From Bacteroidales bacterium (GTDB lineage Bacteria > Bacteroidota > Bacteroidia > Bacteroidales > UBA12077), in assembly GCA_030637515.1 (NCBI GenBank), contig DAOWGM010000073.1, forward strand, positions 1-64,000: DNA of 64,000 nt, read 5' to 3'. The translations under genes and the position numbers were made by a program. Shown here one piece after another: positions 39,656 to 55,982 of the stretch (position 1 is its first letter; the number at the start of each line of letters is the position of its first letter). The notes under the pieces are model-generated. The model was not told the DNA's origin. It ran no database searches and saw only the letters and a program-made list of their open reading frames with translations.

Positions 39656-40207
39656 ATGAATTCTGCCGACAAGAAGGTATTAGCGAATATTAATAAAGGT
39701 GATATTCGACAATTTGAAGTTCTTTTTAAGGATTATTATGAAAAGCTATGTCAGTTTGCTATGGTATATCTCAAGAATTTAGAACATGCTGAAGAGATAA
39801 TTCAGGATACTTTTTATAACATCTGGAAAAATAAAAAAACTTTAAATATTAAAACATCCTTAAAAGCGTATTTATATACCGCTGTTAAGAATAATTGTTT
39901 GCAGGAAATACGAAAGCGTAATCTGGATATTAAGTATGAAAACTATTATAAATCTCATTATGTTAATGATAGCGTTAATCCTGTTGACGAATTAAACGCA
40001 AAAGAGCTCTCTAAAGTGATTAATAAGACTTTAAACTCATTACCAGAGCGATGTCGTGAGATTTTTAAAATGAGTAGGTATGAGGGTCTTAAATATCATG
40101 AAATTGCTGATAAGTTGTCAATATCAATAAAGACAGTTGAAGCAAATATGGGTAAAGCACTAAAGCAATTCAGATCTAATCTGAAAGAATACGCAGAAGC
40201 TGTATAG
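39656..40207 (+). CDS. RNA polymerase sigma-70 factor, ECF/FecI-like
   Basis: EEIIQDTFYNIWKNK; YHEIADKLSISIKTVEANMGKALKQFR. Confidence 0.92.
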   Translation: MNSADKKVLANINKGDIRQFEVLFKDYYEKLCQFAMVYLKNLEHAEEIIQDTFYNIWKNKKTLNIKTSLKAYLYTAVKNNCLQEIRKRNLDIKYENYYKSHYVNDSVNPVDELNAKELSKVINKTLNSLPERCREIFKMSRYEGLKYHEIADKLSISIKTVEANMGKALKQFRSNLKEYAEAV

Positions 40208-40228
40208 TTTAATATAAAAGGGGAAACT

Positions 40229-41257
40229 ATGGAAGCAAATTTAAATAATGAATATTGGGACCTTATTGCAAAGTATCTTGCAAATGAATGCGATAAAGAT
40301 GAAATAGATAATTTATTTAATTGGATAAATGAAAGCGAAGAGAATAAAATATTATTTAATCAGGTAAAACAAGATCTTAAAATTATAAATATAGATAAAT
40401 CGATGAATAAAATTAATGTAGATTCGGCTTGGGAGAAGTTGAAAGACAGGATAGAGGAAGATGAGCAGGCTCTGCCGATAATAGAAGAGCGCAAATCAAG
40501 GCGACTTCATGCTCCGTTCGTATTAAAATATGCTGCAGCTATTATCCTTTTAGTGAGTGTTGGATTTTTTACTACAAAATATTATATGAGTTTGCAGGAT
40601 GATTATCGCAACATAACTGAAATAACTGCCAAAAATGAAATAATAGAACAGATAACATTGCCTGATGGGTCTATTGTTTCTTTGAATGCTGATAGTAAGT
40701 TGGAATACCCTGAAGAATTTACAGATAATGAAAGAAAAGTAAAACTGACCGGAGAAGGTTTCTTTGACGTTACTAAGAACCCTGAAAAACCTTTTATTAT
40801 TGAAGCTGAAAATGCAGAAGTAAGAGTTTTAGGAACTTCTTTTAATGTAAATACAAGATTATCAAAAGATAATGTCGAGGTTTTTGTTAAAACTGGATTG
40901 GTTGAATTAAAACGCAAAAATAACGGTGACGAAAAACTGCTTATTAAACCTGGTAACGTAGGAGTATTGACAAAAAGCAAATTAGAAAAATCGGTTAATA
41001 CAAATAATAATATTATCGCATGGAAAACGCGTGAAATTATATTCCGTGAAGATAAAATGTCTGACGTTATTCATATTTTAAATACGGTATACAATACAAG
41101 TATTATCTGTGAAAACCAAGAAGTGTTAAACCTAAAATACACATCAACCTTTGCTAATCAGGATATTAACTCTGTACTAAATGTAATATGTGTAACATTT
41201 GATCTAAAAGTAGAATACAAAAACGATAAAATTTATTTGATAAAATTGGATAGTTAA
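40229..41257 (+). CDS. FecR-family anti-sigma regulator
   Basis: TLPDGSIVSLNADSKLEYPEEF...GEGFFDVTKNPEKPFIIEAENAEVRVLGTSFNV. Confidence 0.93.
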   Translation: MEANLNNEYWDLIAKYLANECDKDEIDNLFNWINESEENKILFNQVKQDLKIINIDKSMNKINVDSAWEKLKDRIEEDEQALPIIEERKSRRLHAPFVLKYAAAIILLVSVGFFTTKYYMSLQDDYRNITEITAKNEIIEQITLPDGSIVSLNADSKLEYPEEFTDNERKVKLTGEGFFDVTKNPEKPFIIEAENAEVRVLGTSFNVNTRLSKDNVEVFVKTGLVELKRKNNGDEKLLIKPGNVGVLTKSKLEKSVNTNNNIIAWKTREIIFREDKMSDVIHILNTVYNTSIICENQEVLNLKYTSTFANQDINSVLNVICVTFDLKVEYKNDKIYLIKLDS

Positions 41258-41300
41258 TTTAAAAATAATCAGTATTTTAACGATTATATAAAGTTGCTCT

Positions 41301-42863
41301 ATGATTAACTATTTAAGAAATAAACTCAAACCCATGATTATGACAGTAATAATCATGGGTTTTTCTTTTTTTACAAACCAAGTTTCTTCGCAAAATAGTT
41401 CTCCTCTCGATAGCATTATAACATATAAGGCTAAAAACATTAATTTATTTGAAGTATTAAGTAATATTGGAAGCATTACAGGTTATGAGTTTTCTTACAA
41501 CTCAGATTTGGTTAAAACCAATACCGAGATAAAAGGAATTTTTGAAAATATCTCGATAAATAATCTACTCAAAGAAATATTAAATGACACAACACTTGAA
41601 TGTAAGGTTGTCGATAAACAGATTGTTATTTGTAAGAAAAATTCTTTTGATCAATTAGTCTCATTAAATATTCCTTTAGAAATAGATAATTATCTTCTTA
41701 TTGACGGTACTATTATTGATATTAATACACAACAGGCACTTTCATACGCTAATGTTTCGGTTTTAGGTAAGAGTATTGGAACAGTTTCAAATGAGCAAGG
41801 ACGATTTGTATTGAAGCTACCGGTTGAAAGTCATATTGATACTATAGCAATATCGTATGTTGGATATAAAAATGCTTTGATCCCAATTCATCAACTATCT
41901 ATAAAGAATAATAAAATATATTTAAAACAAGATCCTTTTATGATACAGGAGATTGTGATAAGAAGTAGTAACGCAAAAAGCATACTTGAGCAATCAATAG
42001 ATAAAATAAAAGACAACTATTATACCGATCCCTACTATATTACATCATTCTACAGAGAGATTGTGAAAAATAAAGAAGAATTAGCCTCTATAACAGAAGC
42101 AGTAATTAAAGTTTACAAAAGCCCATACTCTGGTATTTTTTCAGATCAAATTAAACTTCTTAAGAGTCGAAAAAATAAATATTTTACCAGTGCAGATACC
42201 ATTTCACTTAAACTCCAGGGTGGAATGTCATCAAGTTTATATCTTGATTTAATTAAGAATCCTTTGCTTTTTATTAGTAAAGAACATCTTAAATACTATA
42301 AATATAACATGAAACAAATTGTAAATTTCAATAACACTTCAGCTTACGTTATTGGGTTTGAACCTAAAATGTATATTGAAAACAATGCTTTTGAGGGTAA
42401 TATATATATAAACACAGATGATTTGGCCATAGTAGCTATTGATTTTAAACTAACCGAAGAGGGTTTAAAAAGGACTGGAAGAAATTTTGTTGTTCAGAGT
42501 TCTTTTAGAACACAAGTAAAAGCAGTTTCAGTAAGTTATGTAATAAATTACAGAAAGATTAATAATAAATATTTTATTAATCTTACTAAAGGAGAATTAG
42601 AATTTAAAGCAAGATACAAACGAAAACTTTTTTCAACTGAATTTAAAACGGTTTTTGAATTTGCAGCAAATAATATTGATACTACAGATGTTATTAGATA
42701 TAACAGGATAGAGACAATTTCACCAAACAAGGTTTTTATTGATGAATATTATAAGTATGATCAATCTTTTTGGGGTGATTATAATTATATAAGCCCCAAC
42801 GAATCACTCGAAGAGGCTTTAATACGAATTCAATACAAGCTGGATGAGTTAAAAGAAGAATAG
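41301..42863 (+). CDS. STN + carboxypeptidase-D regulatory-like domain protein
   Basis: Signal peptide; STN YKAKNINLFEVLSNIGSITGYEFSYNSDL; CarboxypepD_reg GTIIDINTQQALSYANVSVLGKSIGTVSNEQGRFVL. Confidence 0.85.
   Translation: MINYLRNKLKPMIMTVIIMGFSFFTNQVSSQNSSPLDSIITYKAKNINLFEVLSNIGSITGYEFSYNSDLVKTNTEIKGIFENISINNLLKEILNDTTLECKVVDKQIVICKKNSFDQLVSLNIPLEIDNYLLIDGTIIDINTQQALSYANVSVLGKSIGTVSNEQGRFVLKLPVESHIDTIAISYVGYKNALIPIHQLSIKNNKIYLKQDPFMIQEIVIRSSNAKSILEQSIDKIKDNYYTDPYYITSFYREIVKNKEELASITEAVIKVYKSPYSGIFSDQIKLLKSRKNKYFTSADTISLKLQGGMSSSLYLDLIKNPLLFISKEHLKYYKYNMKQIVNFNNTSAYVIGFEPKMYIENNAFEGNIYINTDDLAIVAIDFKLTEEGLKRTGRNFVVQSSFRTQVKAVSVSYVINYRKINNKYFINLTKGELEFKARYKRKLFSTEFKTVFEFAANNIDTTDVIRYNRIETISPNKVFIDEYYKYDQSFWGDYNYISPNESLEEALIRIQYKLDELKEE
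41328..41371 (+). promoter_or_regulatory. Perfect 14-bp hairpin plus U-rich tract inside the start of the STN CDS
   Basis: AAACCCATGATTAT-GACAGTA-ATAATCATGGGTTT-TTCTTTTTTT. Confidence 0.6.
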
Positions 42864-42883: not shown

Positions 42884-44746
42884 CTATTCATTTTTACTGT
42901 AAGCTCTTACCCAGTCAACTTCCATATTACAAGGAACTGAAGGATTACCTTCCTGACTAATACCTGAACTTAAAATAATATACATTGGTTCTTGTGGAAC
43001 ACCCTGAGTTTGCTCATATAAAACAACATCATTTATTTTCCATACAAGCTTATCTTGTGTCCATTCCAATGAATAAATAAAGTAATCTTTAGAGAAATTC
43101 AATCCACTAAGCGCCTTTTTATTGTTTCCATCATCACTCCAGTAATTAGCAACTTCAAGTTTTGAAGCAGACTTTTTACCATACTTAAAAATATCAATTT
43201 CAGGCGTAATTTTCTCGCCTAACATCCAAAATGCATGATGAGCAGGGAAGGAGTGATTAACTTTAATTTTAGCCTTAAATAAGCCATATTGTTGTCTGAA
43301 TGATTGTCCTGTATTAATTAAACCTGAAGTGTAATCAAAGTCCTTAGAATAGAATCCCATTGTAGGATCCCAAACTTTTCCGGAAACATTTTCTTGTCTT
43401 GTTGAAATTTTAAGGTTGCTATTACCCAACTCAATATTATTTTCAGTAAAAAATTGTTTTTCATTTACTTGTACATAATTATCGTTTAACAAATTCTTTC
43501 CCCAGTAATAACCACTAATCCACTTTTCAGAATCTAATTTAGCACCTTCGAAATCATCTTCAAATGTAAGCTGCCACACACTAAGCTTATCAAAATCGTT
43601 TTTCTTTTCTAACTTCTGATACCATTTAATTTTTTCTGAATTTTTAAGTTCTTTAAACTCTTCTGATTGCTTAAATTCTTCTGATAATTTGAATTTATCT
43701 TTTGTTAATAAGTATTTCTTTTCTTCAGCAAAATCATTTGAGTTAATATATACCTCGAGTTCTTCGTAATCTGCAATCTCTTGTGATTCATTTAATTCTG
43801 TAAATATTTTAAGCTTTTCTGAATCTTTAAACTTAAAATACTGCTTAATTTCAGCTGATTTTTTAAGAGATTTATATTCCTGCAGTTTCTTGTACTCTTC
43901 CGTGTTCTCAAATTTCATATTCTTTACCTCAAGTACATGATTTTTGAATTCTTCTGAGTTGCTCTCTTTTTCTAAACTTAAATATGACTCTATTTCCTCA
44001 GAACCATCAAGTTGTGTGTAATTTTTATATTTTTCTGAATCTTTAAATTTGAAATAATTCTTTACTTTTGACGATTTAGAAAGACTTTTAAATTGATTAA
44101 GCTTAGCAAATTCTTCAGGGTTCTCTTTTTTATCTATAGAATTGAAGTTTACCGACTCAACGTAGCCTTTTAATTCATTATATTCCTCAAGTTCTTTAGA
44201 ACCATTGAAATTCTCAAAATCTGAAAGTTGATTAGAACCTTTTAAAGTAAAATAACCTTTATATTTCTTTTTTAGTTCTTTATACTTTGCCTGTTTATCT
44301 TTAATTACTTGTGTTTTTTCTGTTTTTTGCTGAATCAATGATTTTTTGAATTCTTCAAACTCAGGTGAAGTATAAAACTGATCCAATTCCTGATAATTGG
44401 CAAGCTTATCAGAATCTTTAAATGATTTGTAATCTTTTAATTCCTGCGAATCTTTTACTTGGTAATAGGTTTTAACTCGCTTCGATTTCTTTTGTTCTTT
44501 GAATTTCTTTTCTTTTTCTGCTGGTTCAGAGCCTGGATATTTTTTCCCGTTTATTTCTTTTTTTATATCCTCAAACTCCTTTGAAGTAACAAAAGCTTCG
44601 AGCTCTTTATAACGTGCTAGTTCTTCTGACTCAGAGTAGGCTGTAAAGTCTTCAAACTCTTGTTTTAGTTTATTCTCTTTTTCTTCTAAAACCGAAGTTT
44701 TTGGGATCATTCCCAATTTTGCATATAACGAAAATTTTGCGCTCAT
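42884..44746 (-). CDS. Repeat-rich protein with C-terminal GH16-like (concanavalin-fold) domain, probably non-catalytic
   Basis: About 4-5 units of ~70 aa (KDSEKLKxYxEL..SxEIxxYxELExY..S.EF...); GH16-like region LTFEDDFEGAKLDSEKW..., PEIDIFKYG at the GH16 EIDxxE position, EVDWVRAY C-terminus; no signal peptide. Confidence 0.85.
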   Translation of the reverse strand: MSAKFSLYAKLGMIPKTSVLEEKENKLKQEFEDFTAYSESEELARYKELEAFVTSKEFEDIKKEINGKKYPGSEPAEKEKKFKEQKKSKRVKTYYQVKDSQELKDYKSFKDSDKLANYQELDQFYTSPEFEEFKKSLIQQKTEKTQVIKDKQAKYKELKKKYKGYFTLKGSNQLSDFENFNGSKELEEYNELKGYVESVNFNSIDKKENPEEFAKLNQFKSLSKSSKVKNYFKFKDSEKYKNYTQLDGSEEIESYLSLEKESNSEEFKNHVLEVKNMKFENTEEYKKLQEYKSLKKSAEIKQYFKFKDSEKLKIFTELNESQEIADYEELEVYINSNDFAEEKKYLLTKDKFKLSEEFKQSEEFKELKNSEKIKWYQKLEKKNDFDKLSVWQLTFEDDFEGAKLDSEKWISGYYWGKNLLNDNYVQVNEKQFFTENNIELGNSNLKISTRQENVSGKVWDPTMGFYSKDFDYTSGLINTGQSFRQQYGLFKAKIKVNHSFPAHHAFWMLGEKITPEIDIFKYGKKSASKLEVANYWSDDGNNKKALSGLNFSKDYFIYSLEWTQDKLVWKINDVVLYEQTQGVPQEPMYIILSSGISQEGNPSVPCNMEVDWVRAYSKNE

Positions 44747-44851
44747 AATTTATATGTTTTCTTGCCAATGGTTAAAGATATAAAAAAATCACAAGATGTA
44801 TTTATAATTTATTTGAATTGTTTCCGTGTTTGAGTTTATTTAAAAACAAAA

Positions 44852-44878
44852 AAAGACCGGCATTTATTGCCGGTCTTT
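44852..44878. terminator. Bidirectional terminator
   Basis: AAAGACCGGCA-TTTAT-TGCCGGTCTTT. Confidence 0.85.
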
Positions 44879-44898
44879 CATAATATATTGATTTTTAA

Positions 44899-46956
44899 CT
44901 ATTTTATACGTTTTAAAGCTTCTTCTGTTGCTTCAATCATAGGATTAATTGAAATGTTCTCACCAACTGCTTCTTGCATCCAAATCTGTGGTGTAACTTG
45001 TCCGATACTCCATATTCTGTCAACCTCATCTGAAAAATTCTTTCCAACAAGGTATTGTTCAATCTGAAAATCAATTAAATGTCCAAACGAGTAATTTGCA
45101 AGATATAAAGCAGCATTAATCATATGTGAATATACAGAAAGTATTGGCTGATCATTAATTCCGTAAACAGGCGCAAAATATTTGTTCCAAACTTCATTAG
45201 CAATATTTACTGTTGCCTCATTCAATTGTGCTGCGTTTGCTTCTGGATTTGCATAAAGCCATTTCCATACTTTCATATCAACCATTGAAACACCCATTAT
45301 TTCAAAAACAGACCAATATAAATCAAGTGTCTCAAGATATTCTTTATCAGGATTTTCATTTGTAAAACCTAATAACTGAAGATCTCTTTTCTGGAAAATA
45401 AATGCTAAAGCTTCAGTAAAGGCAGTGTTAGGAACACCGTTAATCAGATAATAATCAGCATCATGTAATGATATTGTTTGCTCTACATTATGTCCGAACT
45501 CATGAACTGCAATATTATAACCTTTATAATCCATTCCTTTTCCTGAAATTCGAGTACGTAAATGTGCGTTTTCAGCTTTCATTTGTGCTCCCCAAGCATG
45601 ACCAGAGCCACGAGCTGCATCAACAACTACTTTCGAAGCAATAAATTCGGCTCTGCTCTTTTCCCAACCTAATTTTTTTAAAATATTTCCTAAATCAGCT
45701 TCTAATGCTTTTTCGTTTGGATATTTTTTTCGAGTTATATCGTTCAATGTTTCTTCAGAAATAGAGCTTCTGGCCTTAAAACCATCGTACCAAATATCAT
45801 AAGGTTTTAAATCACGACCAAGGCGAGATTTAATAAGTTCACCAACCTGTTTTGCAACCGGAGATGATAAATATTCGTCAAATAAGATTTCCACTTCTTC
45901 CTGAGGAATTTCTTTTGATCCTGAAAATGCTCTTTTAACAAATGTATTATAATCAGCATAATACTCATCTGTAGCTTTCAGTGCATGAAAATTATTTAAT
46001 ATTTCCTGATATCGTGAATTAGGTTCTGAAGTTAGTTCAACTGTGTTATCATCCTGATATACTTTATTTTCAATTGGATTCCAGTCGTAATCGCCTGAAT
46101 TAATAACTGCTTCAGGTATAGTCTGATTTATAATGTGTTTCATTACAGTATAAATCATATCTTGCTTTTCAAGCCCGTTTTCTTTGTTTGCGTAGTTTGA
46201 TTTTATTTCGTCGCGTAAATTCCAATGCGAAAGTAAAACCATATTTTCAGGGAATAACTTTATATTTTCGTTATTTAAAAGATGTCCCATATAGATATTA
46301 TATTCAGCAATATAAATATCAGAACCAGTACTTGCATTTCCTATTTTTTGAGATAATTCAGCAGGAACACGTGCAGTAAATACATCACCTAATCTGGCGT
46401 AAGCCCATTGTAATGAATCCCAGTTTTTTCCAATTTCATTCTTTTCATCTAAAGAAAAAGGAGGAAAGTTAAGCGCAATTACAAATGCAATTTTGTTTGA
46501 ATAAAAATCATCTGCGAAATGCGAACTTGGACTGTATGCAGCAAACATAGCATCAATACTGTGATAAGGACCGTTATTCAAATGCATATTCTCATTTAAA
46601 TCAAGAATAATTTTGTTTTGATGCCCCCATAACGATTCAAAATTAGCAGATATCTTAAGAAATACTGCTTCCTTTATAGAATCATTCGAAATATACTGAT
46701 CTAAACAGAAATTTTCAAACTCTGAAGTTGTTCCGTCAGAAGCTCTCCAAAGAGATGCAGCATGTTTTACACCACGACCAATTAGTTCCTCATTCTCGGA
46801 ACCATATTTTTCAACAAGTGCTTTTTGAGTGGTTTCAATTACCTGATCATTAATATTTTTTTGATCGGATACTTTTTTATCAATAGCTGTATTTGTACAT
46901 TGTACAAATATAAAAGCTACTATAGATAATATAATTACAAAACTTTTTTTCATCAT
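44899..46956 (-). CDS. HEXXH zinc metallopeptidase, lipoprotein (gluzincin-like)
   Basis: IAVHEFGHNVEQ...NTAFTEALAFIF; lipobox FVQC. Confidence 0.75.
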   Translation of the reverse strand: MMKKSFVIILSIVAFIFVQCTNTAIDKKVSDQKNINDQVIETTQKALVEKYGSENEELIGRGVKHAASLWRASDGTTSEFENFCLDQYISNDSIKEAVFLKISANFESLWGHQNKIILDLNENMHLNNGPYHSIDAMFAAYSPSSHFADDFYSNKIAFVIALNFPPFSLDEKNEIGKNWDSLQWAYARLGDVFTARVPAELSQKIGNASTGSDIYIAEYNIYMGHLLNNENIKLFPENMVLLSHWNLRDEIKSNYANKENGLEKQDMIYTVMKHIINQTIPEAVINSGDYDWNPIENKVYQDDNTVELTSEPNSRYQEILNNFHALKATDEYYADYNTFVKRAFSGSKEIPQEEVEILFDEYLSSPVAKQVGELIKSRLGRDLKPYDIWYDGFKARSSISEETLNDITRKKYPNEKALEADLGNILKKLGWEKSRAEFIASKVVVDAARGSGHAWGAQMKAENAHLRTRISGKGMDYKGYNIAVHEFGHNVEQTISLHDADYYLINGVPNTAFTEALAFIFQKRDLQLLGFTNENPDKEYLETLDLYWSVFEIMGVSMVDMKVWKWLYANPEANAAQLNEATVNIANEVWNKYFAPVYGINDQPILSVYSHMINAALYLANYSFGHLIDFQIEQYLVGKNFSDEVDRIWSIGQVTPQIWMQEAVGENISINPMIEATEEALKRIK

Positions 46957-54809: not shown

Positions 54810-55982
54810 ATGTATAATATTGCATTATTTGGTCCTCCGGGAGCTGGAAAAGGAACTCAGTCTCGCAAACTGATTGAGAAGTATAACCTTGCTTATATAT
54901 CTACAGGAGATATTCTAAGAGAAGAAATTGCAGAAGGTTCAGACTTAGGTATGCAGGCAAAGAGTGTTATTGAGATGGGTGGATTGGTTTCGGATGAAAT
55001 AATAGTACAAATTATTGAAAAGAAAATTAAAACAAATACTGAGGTTAATGGATTTCTTTTTGATGGTTTTCCAAGAACCATTGTTCAGGCATATATCCTT
55101 GAAGGATTACTACTAAAATTAAATACATCATTAAATTGTATGGTAAGCCTGGAAGTTCCTCAAGATAATTTAATGGAACGAATGCTGGAACGTTCAAAAA
55201 AAGAGAATAGAATTGATGATACTACGGAAGTTATTGAAAACAGATTAAAAGAATATAAAAACAAAACAATTCCTGTTGCTGAATTTTACAAAGATAAAGG
55301 CATTTGTTATTCAGTTGACGGAATAGGTACTCTTGATGAAATATTTGAAAGAATAACCAATGTTGTTGAGCAATCATTAACAAAAACATGGTTAAATGTT
55401 GTTCTTTTTGGTCCTCCGGGATCAGGAAAAGGAACTCAGGGGAAAATGTTAGCAGATAAATATGATTTAGTTTACATTTCGACAGGTTCTTTGCTAAGAA
55501 AAGAAATTGAGAAAGGTACTGAAATGGGACTGGCAGCAAAAGAATATGTAGAGAAAGGTGATATTGTGCCTGATGAATTTGCTATAAAACTTATAGAAAA
55601 ACAGATTCAGACACATCCTGATGCTAAAGGTTTCTTTTTTAAAGGTTACCCGAGAACAATTGTTCAAGCATACATACTTGATGGTTTACTAAGAAAATTA
55701 AATTCATCTGTATCATGTGTATTTAATTTAGATGTTCCGACACTGGAATCGATAAAGCGACTAAGTGCTCGTAGTAAAACTGAAAAGAGCAGATATTATG
55801 ACATGGATACTGAAGTAATTATAAGACGTTTAGAAAGTTTCCAGACACGAACAGCTCCAGTATTGGATTATTACGAAAAACAGAAAAATATTTATAATAT
55901 TAATGGAATAGGATCGGAAGAAGAGGTTCTTGAACGTCTCACAGAAAATCTTGAACTGGCATTTAAAAATGCACGTCGTTAA
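54810..55982 (+). CDS. Tandem (two-domain) adenylate kinase-like protein
   Basis: Two P-loops GPPGAGKGTQ and GPPGSGKGTQ; two LID/core regions; DGFPRTIVQAYIL and KGYPRTIVQAYIL. Confidence 0.92.
   Translation: MYNIALFGPPGAGKGTQSRKLIEKYNLAYISTGDILREEIAEGSDLGMQAKSVIEMGGLVSDEIIVQIIEKKIKTNTEVNGFLFDGFPRTIVQAYILEGLLLKLNTSLNCMVSLEVPQDNLMERMLERSKKENRIDDTTEVIENRLKEYKNKTIPVAEFYKDKGICYSVDGIGTLDEIFERITNVVEQSLTKTWLNVVLFGPPGSGKGTQGKMLADKYDLVYISTGSLLRKEIEKGTEMGLAAKEYVEKGDIVPDEFAIKLIEKQIQTHPDAKGFFFKGYPRTIVQAYILDGLLRKLNSSVSCVFNLDVPTLESIKRLSARSKTEKSRYYDMDTEVIIRRLESFQTRTAPVLDYYEKQKNIYNINGIGSEEEVLERLTENLELAFKNARR

Follow-up and report, generated by a model that had tools for sequence, protein, structure and literature searches.

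The window, by which we mean the whole stretch of 64,000 nt of Bacteroidales DNA that was analysed, carries on its reverse strand an ORF (42884-44746) that codes for a non-catalytic GH16 helical-repeat protein of 620 aa. Both the coordinates and the sequence of this ORF, as given in an earlier note made on the DNA, proved exact when re-checked. A genome search showed that this gene, degenerate in its catalytic motif, is the sole GH16 gene of its own genome. The features of the gene and its protein are collected in Table 1.

Table 1. Positions of the gene, its predicted flanking elements and the parts of its protein within the window
Feature	Position	Strand	Basis or remark
Whole CDS, 620 aa	42884..44746	-	Exact ORF and orthologues
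Conserved N-terminal tail, residues 1-21	44684..44746	-	Pattern FxxxLFGxIPxTxKIE; not a signal peptide
Helical repeat 1, residues 26-99	44450..44671	-	66.8 bits; modelled helices
Helical repeat 2, residues 100-170	44237..44449	-	50.7 bits; modelled helices
Helical repeat 3, residues 171-236	44039..44236	-	52.8 bits; modelled helices
Helical repeat 4, residues 237-308	43823..44038	-	72.9 bits; modelled helices
Helical repeat 5, residues 309-383	43598..43822	-	71.1 bits; modelled helices
GH16-like jelly-roll domain, residues 390-617	42896..43579	-	Pfam PF00722, PDB, Foldseek
Family-specific loop SGKVWDPTMGFYSKDFDYTSGLIN, residues 455-478	43313..43384	-	W459 and G464 invariant
Degenerate active-site motif EIDIFK, residues 516-521	43184..43201	-	ExDxxE in enzymes
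Conserved promoter/leader element TTTTTTTATATCTTTAACCATTGGCAAG (putative)	44761..44788	-	Conserved in genus orthologues
Terminator-like hairpin, 12-bp stem and T run	44851..44879	-	Between the gene and the upstream metallopeptidase

The promoter-like element TTTTTTTATATCTTTAACCATTGGCAAG that precedes the gene is found in a single copy in its genome within three mismatches, and its core also precedes orthologues in several other families. We considered a regulon controlled by TTTTTTTATATCTTTAACCATTGGCAAG and rejected it, as the genome holds no second full copy; a shorter -7-like core was rarer than its reversed control, although five of its six matches precede ORFs. As predicted from these elements the gene is a unit of its own, bounded by a terminator and equipped with a conserved promoter, and we count this in favour of the explanation preferred below.

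The upstream gene (44899-46956, reverse strand) codes for a lipoprotein-like protein of 685 aa with a HEFGH zinc-peptidase motif, for which neither a Pfam match above cut-off nor a PDB sequence match was obtained. It adjoins the GH16-repeat gene in the majority of loci from its own family-level group and also in one from another (L054). Convergent to the GH16-repeat gene lies a set of genes (39656-42863, forward strand) for an ECF sigma factor, a FecR protein and a CarboxypepD_reg-domain protein, with no SusC/TonB barrel partner; this set is conserved in the same family-level group. Further, a 390 aa ORF at 54810-55982 on the forward strand is made up of two tandem adenylate-kinase-like halves (P-loops GPPGAGKGTQ and GPPGSGKGTQ), and similar ORFs occur in the related loci L063, L074 and L075, in part truncated at the ends of contigs or loci.

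The surroundings of the gene vary within the order. In family f1 the neighbours are the metallopeptidase and the ECF-sigma/FecR genes. Several other families have a histidine kinase and a response regulator immediately upstream of the GH16-repeat gene, beside lepA and sometimes with the gene of a SiaC-family phosphoprotein in between (the gap from SiaC to the GH16-repeat gene being 21-22 bp in two cases, L212:5708-9776 and L200:8653-13143); this arrangement, too, we count in favour of the explanation preferred below. In six other families its neighbourhood holds a GT9 glycosyltransferase along with genes of ATP synthase. As the neighbours differ between families no single pathway emerges, and a function based on operon context was rejected since conservation of the neighbours is confined to sets of families.

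The claim that the protein ends in a GH16-type domain is borne out by several searches. Residues 390-617 match PF00722 with a Pfam E-value of 3.7e-15, PDB laminarinases match the domain with E-values down to 1.9e-9, and among the matches listed by Foldseek for the C-terminal domain the structures were of GH16 type throughout. The chain terminates at the EVDWVRAY of this domain, and the GH16 fold (PF00722) was detected in 26 of 27 diverse members of the family. The protein thus has the fold of GH16, and it lacks the motif of GH16 enzymes (ExDxxE or ExDxE). As previously read, EIDIFK replaces ExDxxE at the active site, where it aligns column by column with the EIDIME/EIDILE of solved enzymes.

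To count the catalytic residues we used 111 complete members of the family and 33 ordinary GH16 controls. ExDxxE was present at the active site in none of the 111 members and in all 33 controls, which gives strong support to the term pseudoenzyme used in the earlier note. The nucleophile Glu is kept in 34 members and lost in 77, and the acid/base Glu is kept in six, never in the same member as the nucleophile. The earlier note proposed to check the replacement of the acid/base Glu by Lys in orthologues, and Lys or Arg occupies this position in 82 of the 111. In 32 members the motif has neither nucleophile nor Asp, while 26 keep both along with Lys or Arg at the acid/base position. No alternative acidic residue near the motif was conserved family-wide among the 111 members.

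Other positions of the domain are retained or new in the family. Within the family-specific loop, W459 and G464 are present in 111 of 111 members and F465 in 107, and the loop is missing from 32 of the 33 controls. Further family-specific positions are W415, F483-R484-Q485 and N572. The tryptophans W459, W562, W569 and W612 are conserved in the family, and the general His column of the cleft is lost. The AlphaFold model of the GH16 domain was poor (pLDDT mostly below 60), hence the basic character of the cleft is read from sequence only.

Residues 26-383 form five charged helical repeat units of ~70 aa, where four to five had been proposed. The units are 31-42% identical in pairwise comparison, and each of them reaches 51-73 bits with an HMM built from the five units and their homologues; 200 shuffles of the repeat region gave no match to the same HMM. 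The fifth repeat merges with the first jelly-roll strand. Modelling of the repeat fold by AlphaFold, using residues 1-385 along with ten orthologues, gave a confident all-helical model (pLDDT 89.7, pTM 0.52) of short helices, about five per unit. It should be noted that a low pTM is to be expected of an extended arm. Across the family the detectable number of repeats ranges from 0 to 9 and the protein length rises in step with it from ~324 to 905 aa, while both ends of the protein stay conserved.

The repeat could be assigned to no known family, as the first reading of the sequence had it. Residues 1-385 gave no Pfam match up to an E-value of 1, and no Pfam domain was common to the N-terminal region of 27 diverse members. 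DUF349-like and other known tandem helical repeats of Pfam were rejected as the repeat has no profile match to them. A PDB profile search with the repeat region returned a weak match at best (E 0.006), and comparison with the solved helical-repeat folds in the PDB by Foldseek gave long coiled coils (best E 0.063, TM < 0.4). Foldseek of the repeat model against viral proteins yielded no real match. We regard the repeat as a candidate new Pfam family. All repeat matches in 98 genomes sit in the family gene and none in any other gene, hence the arm and the head appear, judging from these sequences, to have evolved as one unit.

The pattern of the N-terminal tail is found in the first ~20 residues, where its G is present in 91, its P in 88, its T in 90 and its E in 107 of the 111 members. 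The absence of a signal peptide was confirmed: the frame spans just 621 codons from stop to stop and ends shortly before the ATG on the upstream side, which leaves no room for a missed signal peptide. A strongly hydrophobic window of 12 residues within the first 45 aa is seen in 2% of the family versus 97% of the GH16 controls, and a lipobox in no family member versus 8 of 33 ordinary GH16 controls. None of the features of Sec/T9SS export (signal peptide, lipobox, T9SS-type C-terminal domain) was found. A membrane-binding amphipathic helix at the N-terminus was also considered and rejected, its hydrophobic moment being not above that of shuffles (z -0.54).

Among 98 relatives searched, full-length copies of the protein turn up within the genus, within the family and in many of the order's families, and the named relatives are uncultivated Bacteroidales/Marinilabiliales MAGs. 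In an order-wide sample of 393 genomes 105 match at E <= 1e-25, and ~102 genomes from 34 family-level groups carry the family, with essentially one copy each. The latter number excludes G617, G760 and G742, each scoring only about 100-109 bits; the match in G617 (L193) is an intact GH16 and has the best non-family score, 109 bits. Outside the order no family member was found in 387 genomes (of 392 drawn from the phylum); these contain ordinary GH16s only, which score at most 85 bits with only the GH16 part aligned. Among the matches listed, plasmids carry ordinary GH16s only. A phage or defence origin was rejected: the PHROG match is weak and confined to the GH16 part, PADLOC gave no match and BFVD no good fold match.

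In a GH16 tree from which the catalytic columns had been left out, the family makes up one side of a branch with an SH-aLRT of 83; an earlier build of this tree was disturbed by one fragmentary control row. Estimates of dN/dS came to about 0.06-0.17 for the GH16 domain and 0.065-0.085 for the repeats as long as synonymous sites were unsaturated. The family is under strong purifying selection, and the low dN/dS means that the catalytic loss is not decay.

By profile the closest intact kin is the EglC-type group of secreted glucanases. The EglC-type GH16 endo-beta-1,3(1,4)-glucanases (NCBIfam NF052454) and the GH16_3 laminarinases have in common with the family the beta-jelly-roll, the FEDDF..W start, the YTSG strand and the (E/D)xDW/YVRxY end, and (R/P)PEID is common to the family and its intact rhizobial and cyanobacterial relatives. 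Unlike EglC and GH16_3, the family has no signal peptide and no catalytic Glu pair in any member, and it has an extra W..GF loop along with the long N-terminal helical repeats. EglC is the best NCBIfam match, with 75.4 bits from the GH16 part only, which is below the curated cut-off of 700. The intact GH16 of G617, from the same order (L193:6020-7408), has part of the W...KxFDYTSG loop region of the family; unlike the family it has a signal peptide, an intact CEIDVFE and a C-terminal domain that looks like a T9SS sorting tail, and no repeats. Going by these features, it is possible that L193 offers a view of the ancestor.

The insect bGRP/GNBP proteins are GH16 proteins without the catalytic glutamates and with an N-terminal extension, and they bind and do not cleave (PMC6403176). 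By analogy only, the family is like them in GH16 fold, loss of catalytic Glu and N-terminal extension. The bGRP/GNBP proteins are animal, mostly secreted and have an N-terminal carbohydrate-recognition domain, whereas the family has unrelated helical repeats instead, this region being helical and without a Pfam match; we infer that the two are likely of independent origin. The GH16-related SKN1/KRE6 of yeast (Pfam PF03935) gave a weak match in 2 of 27 members (best E 1.8e-5), and these are membrane-anchored eukaryotic proteins unlike the family. In a survey of GH16 subfamilies about 1% of the proteins, and 0.7% of GH16_3, are reported to have lost catalytic residues, while in metazoan and fungal GH16_4, with ~9% affected, the loss was without resolution into monophyletic groups (PMC6827312). 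Our literature search for a paper on a bacterial GH16 pseudoenzyme, or for a bacterial clade of such kind, found no precedent.

What we hold as firm is that there is a conserved family of GH16 proteins which are non-catalytic, lack a signal peptide and carry a helical repeat not assigned before. The interpretation given in the earlier note is supported in part, and none of the three outcomes that it named as refuting (orthologues with an intact motif, a missed signal peptide, a repeat of a known Pfam family) was seen. With no export signal and the catalytic residues gone from all members, the protein most likely serves to bind or scaffold something within the cell and not to digest sugar. We suggest, giving it about an even chance, a non-catalytic binding or adaptor protein, most likely cytoplasmic, with a jelly-roll head and an arm of adjustable length. 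That the family is ancient and vertically inherited in Bacteroidales is part of this explanation and is put forward with the same reserve. The protein would then need no Sec export for its work, the cytoplasm being its most likely site, and the head may be a binding module, either lectin-like or protein-binding. The former active site seems to have become basic through Lys or Arg at the acid/base position, which makes an anionic or glycosylated ligand our leading guess. The repeats could provide an extended all-helical arm of tunable length and the conserved N-terminal tail may dock to a partner or a site, so that the whole protein would be an adaptor or scaffold rather than an enzyme.

The main rival is that the jelly-roll has lost sugar binding too and is purely a structural or protein-protein module, the protein being a cytoskeletal or spacer element. 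The loss of the nucleophile in 77 of 111 members, of nucleophile and Asp together in 32, the missing His column and the dominance of long charged repeats all speak for this, but the conserved W459, W562, W569 and W612 along with the new loop suggest that a functional face has been kept, and the dN/dS in the head is as low as in the repeats; we regard it as conceivable, though on the unlikely side. Non-classical export, with binding of an extracellular or surface glycan in the manner of a soluble lectin, seems rather improbable for a chain that stops at EVDWVRAY and has neither signal peptide, lipobox nor T9SS-type C-terminal domain, even if secreted glucanases with signal peptides are the intact proteins nearest to it and an unrecognised targeting signal might reside in the conserved N-terminal tail.

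We think it very unlikely that the protein is still an enzyme that relies on alternative residues or another kind of chemistry in the same cleft. Retention of the fold and of several aromatic residues of the cleft, and the 26 members with nucleophile, Asp and a Lys or Arg at the acid/base position, might be taken to point that way, but this is opposed by the lack of a family-wide alternative acidic residue near the motif and by the 77 of 111 members without the nucleophile. A decaying gene or an annotation artefact has the loss of catalytic residues to its credit and nothing else, and conservation refutes it: the ORF is intact in about 100 genomes, purifying selection is strong and the promoter is conserved, so that we find it hardly credible.

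A complete and ancient loss of this kind in a bacterial clade, going together with a repeat architecture dedicated to it, would clearly exemplify the conversion of an enzyme to a binder. Further, we tentatively speculate, with more doubt than for the adaptor function itself, that Bacteroidales evolved on a single occasion a cytoplasmic non-catalytic GH16 'lectin' on a new tunable helical-repeat arm, which would be an undescribed intracellular glycan-binding or scaffolding system present in dozens of families. As the genes match the GH16 model above cut-off, automated annotation will probably call them family 16 glycosidases, and such mislabelling likely overcounts the degradative capacity in Bacteroidales.
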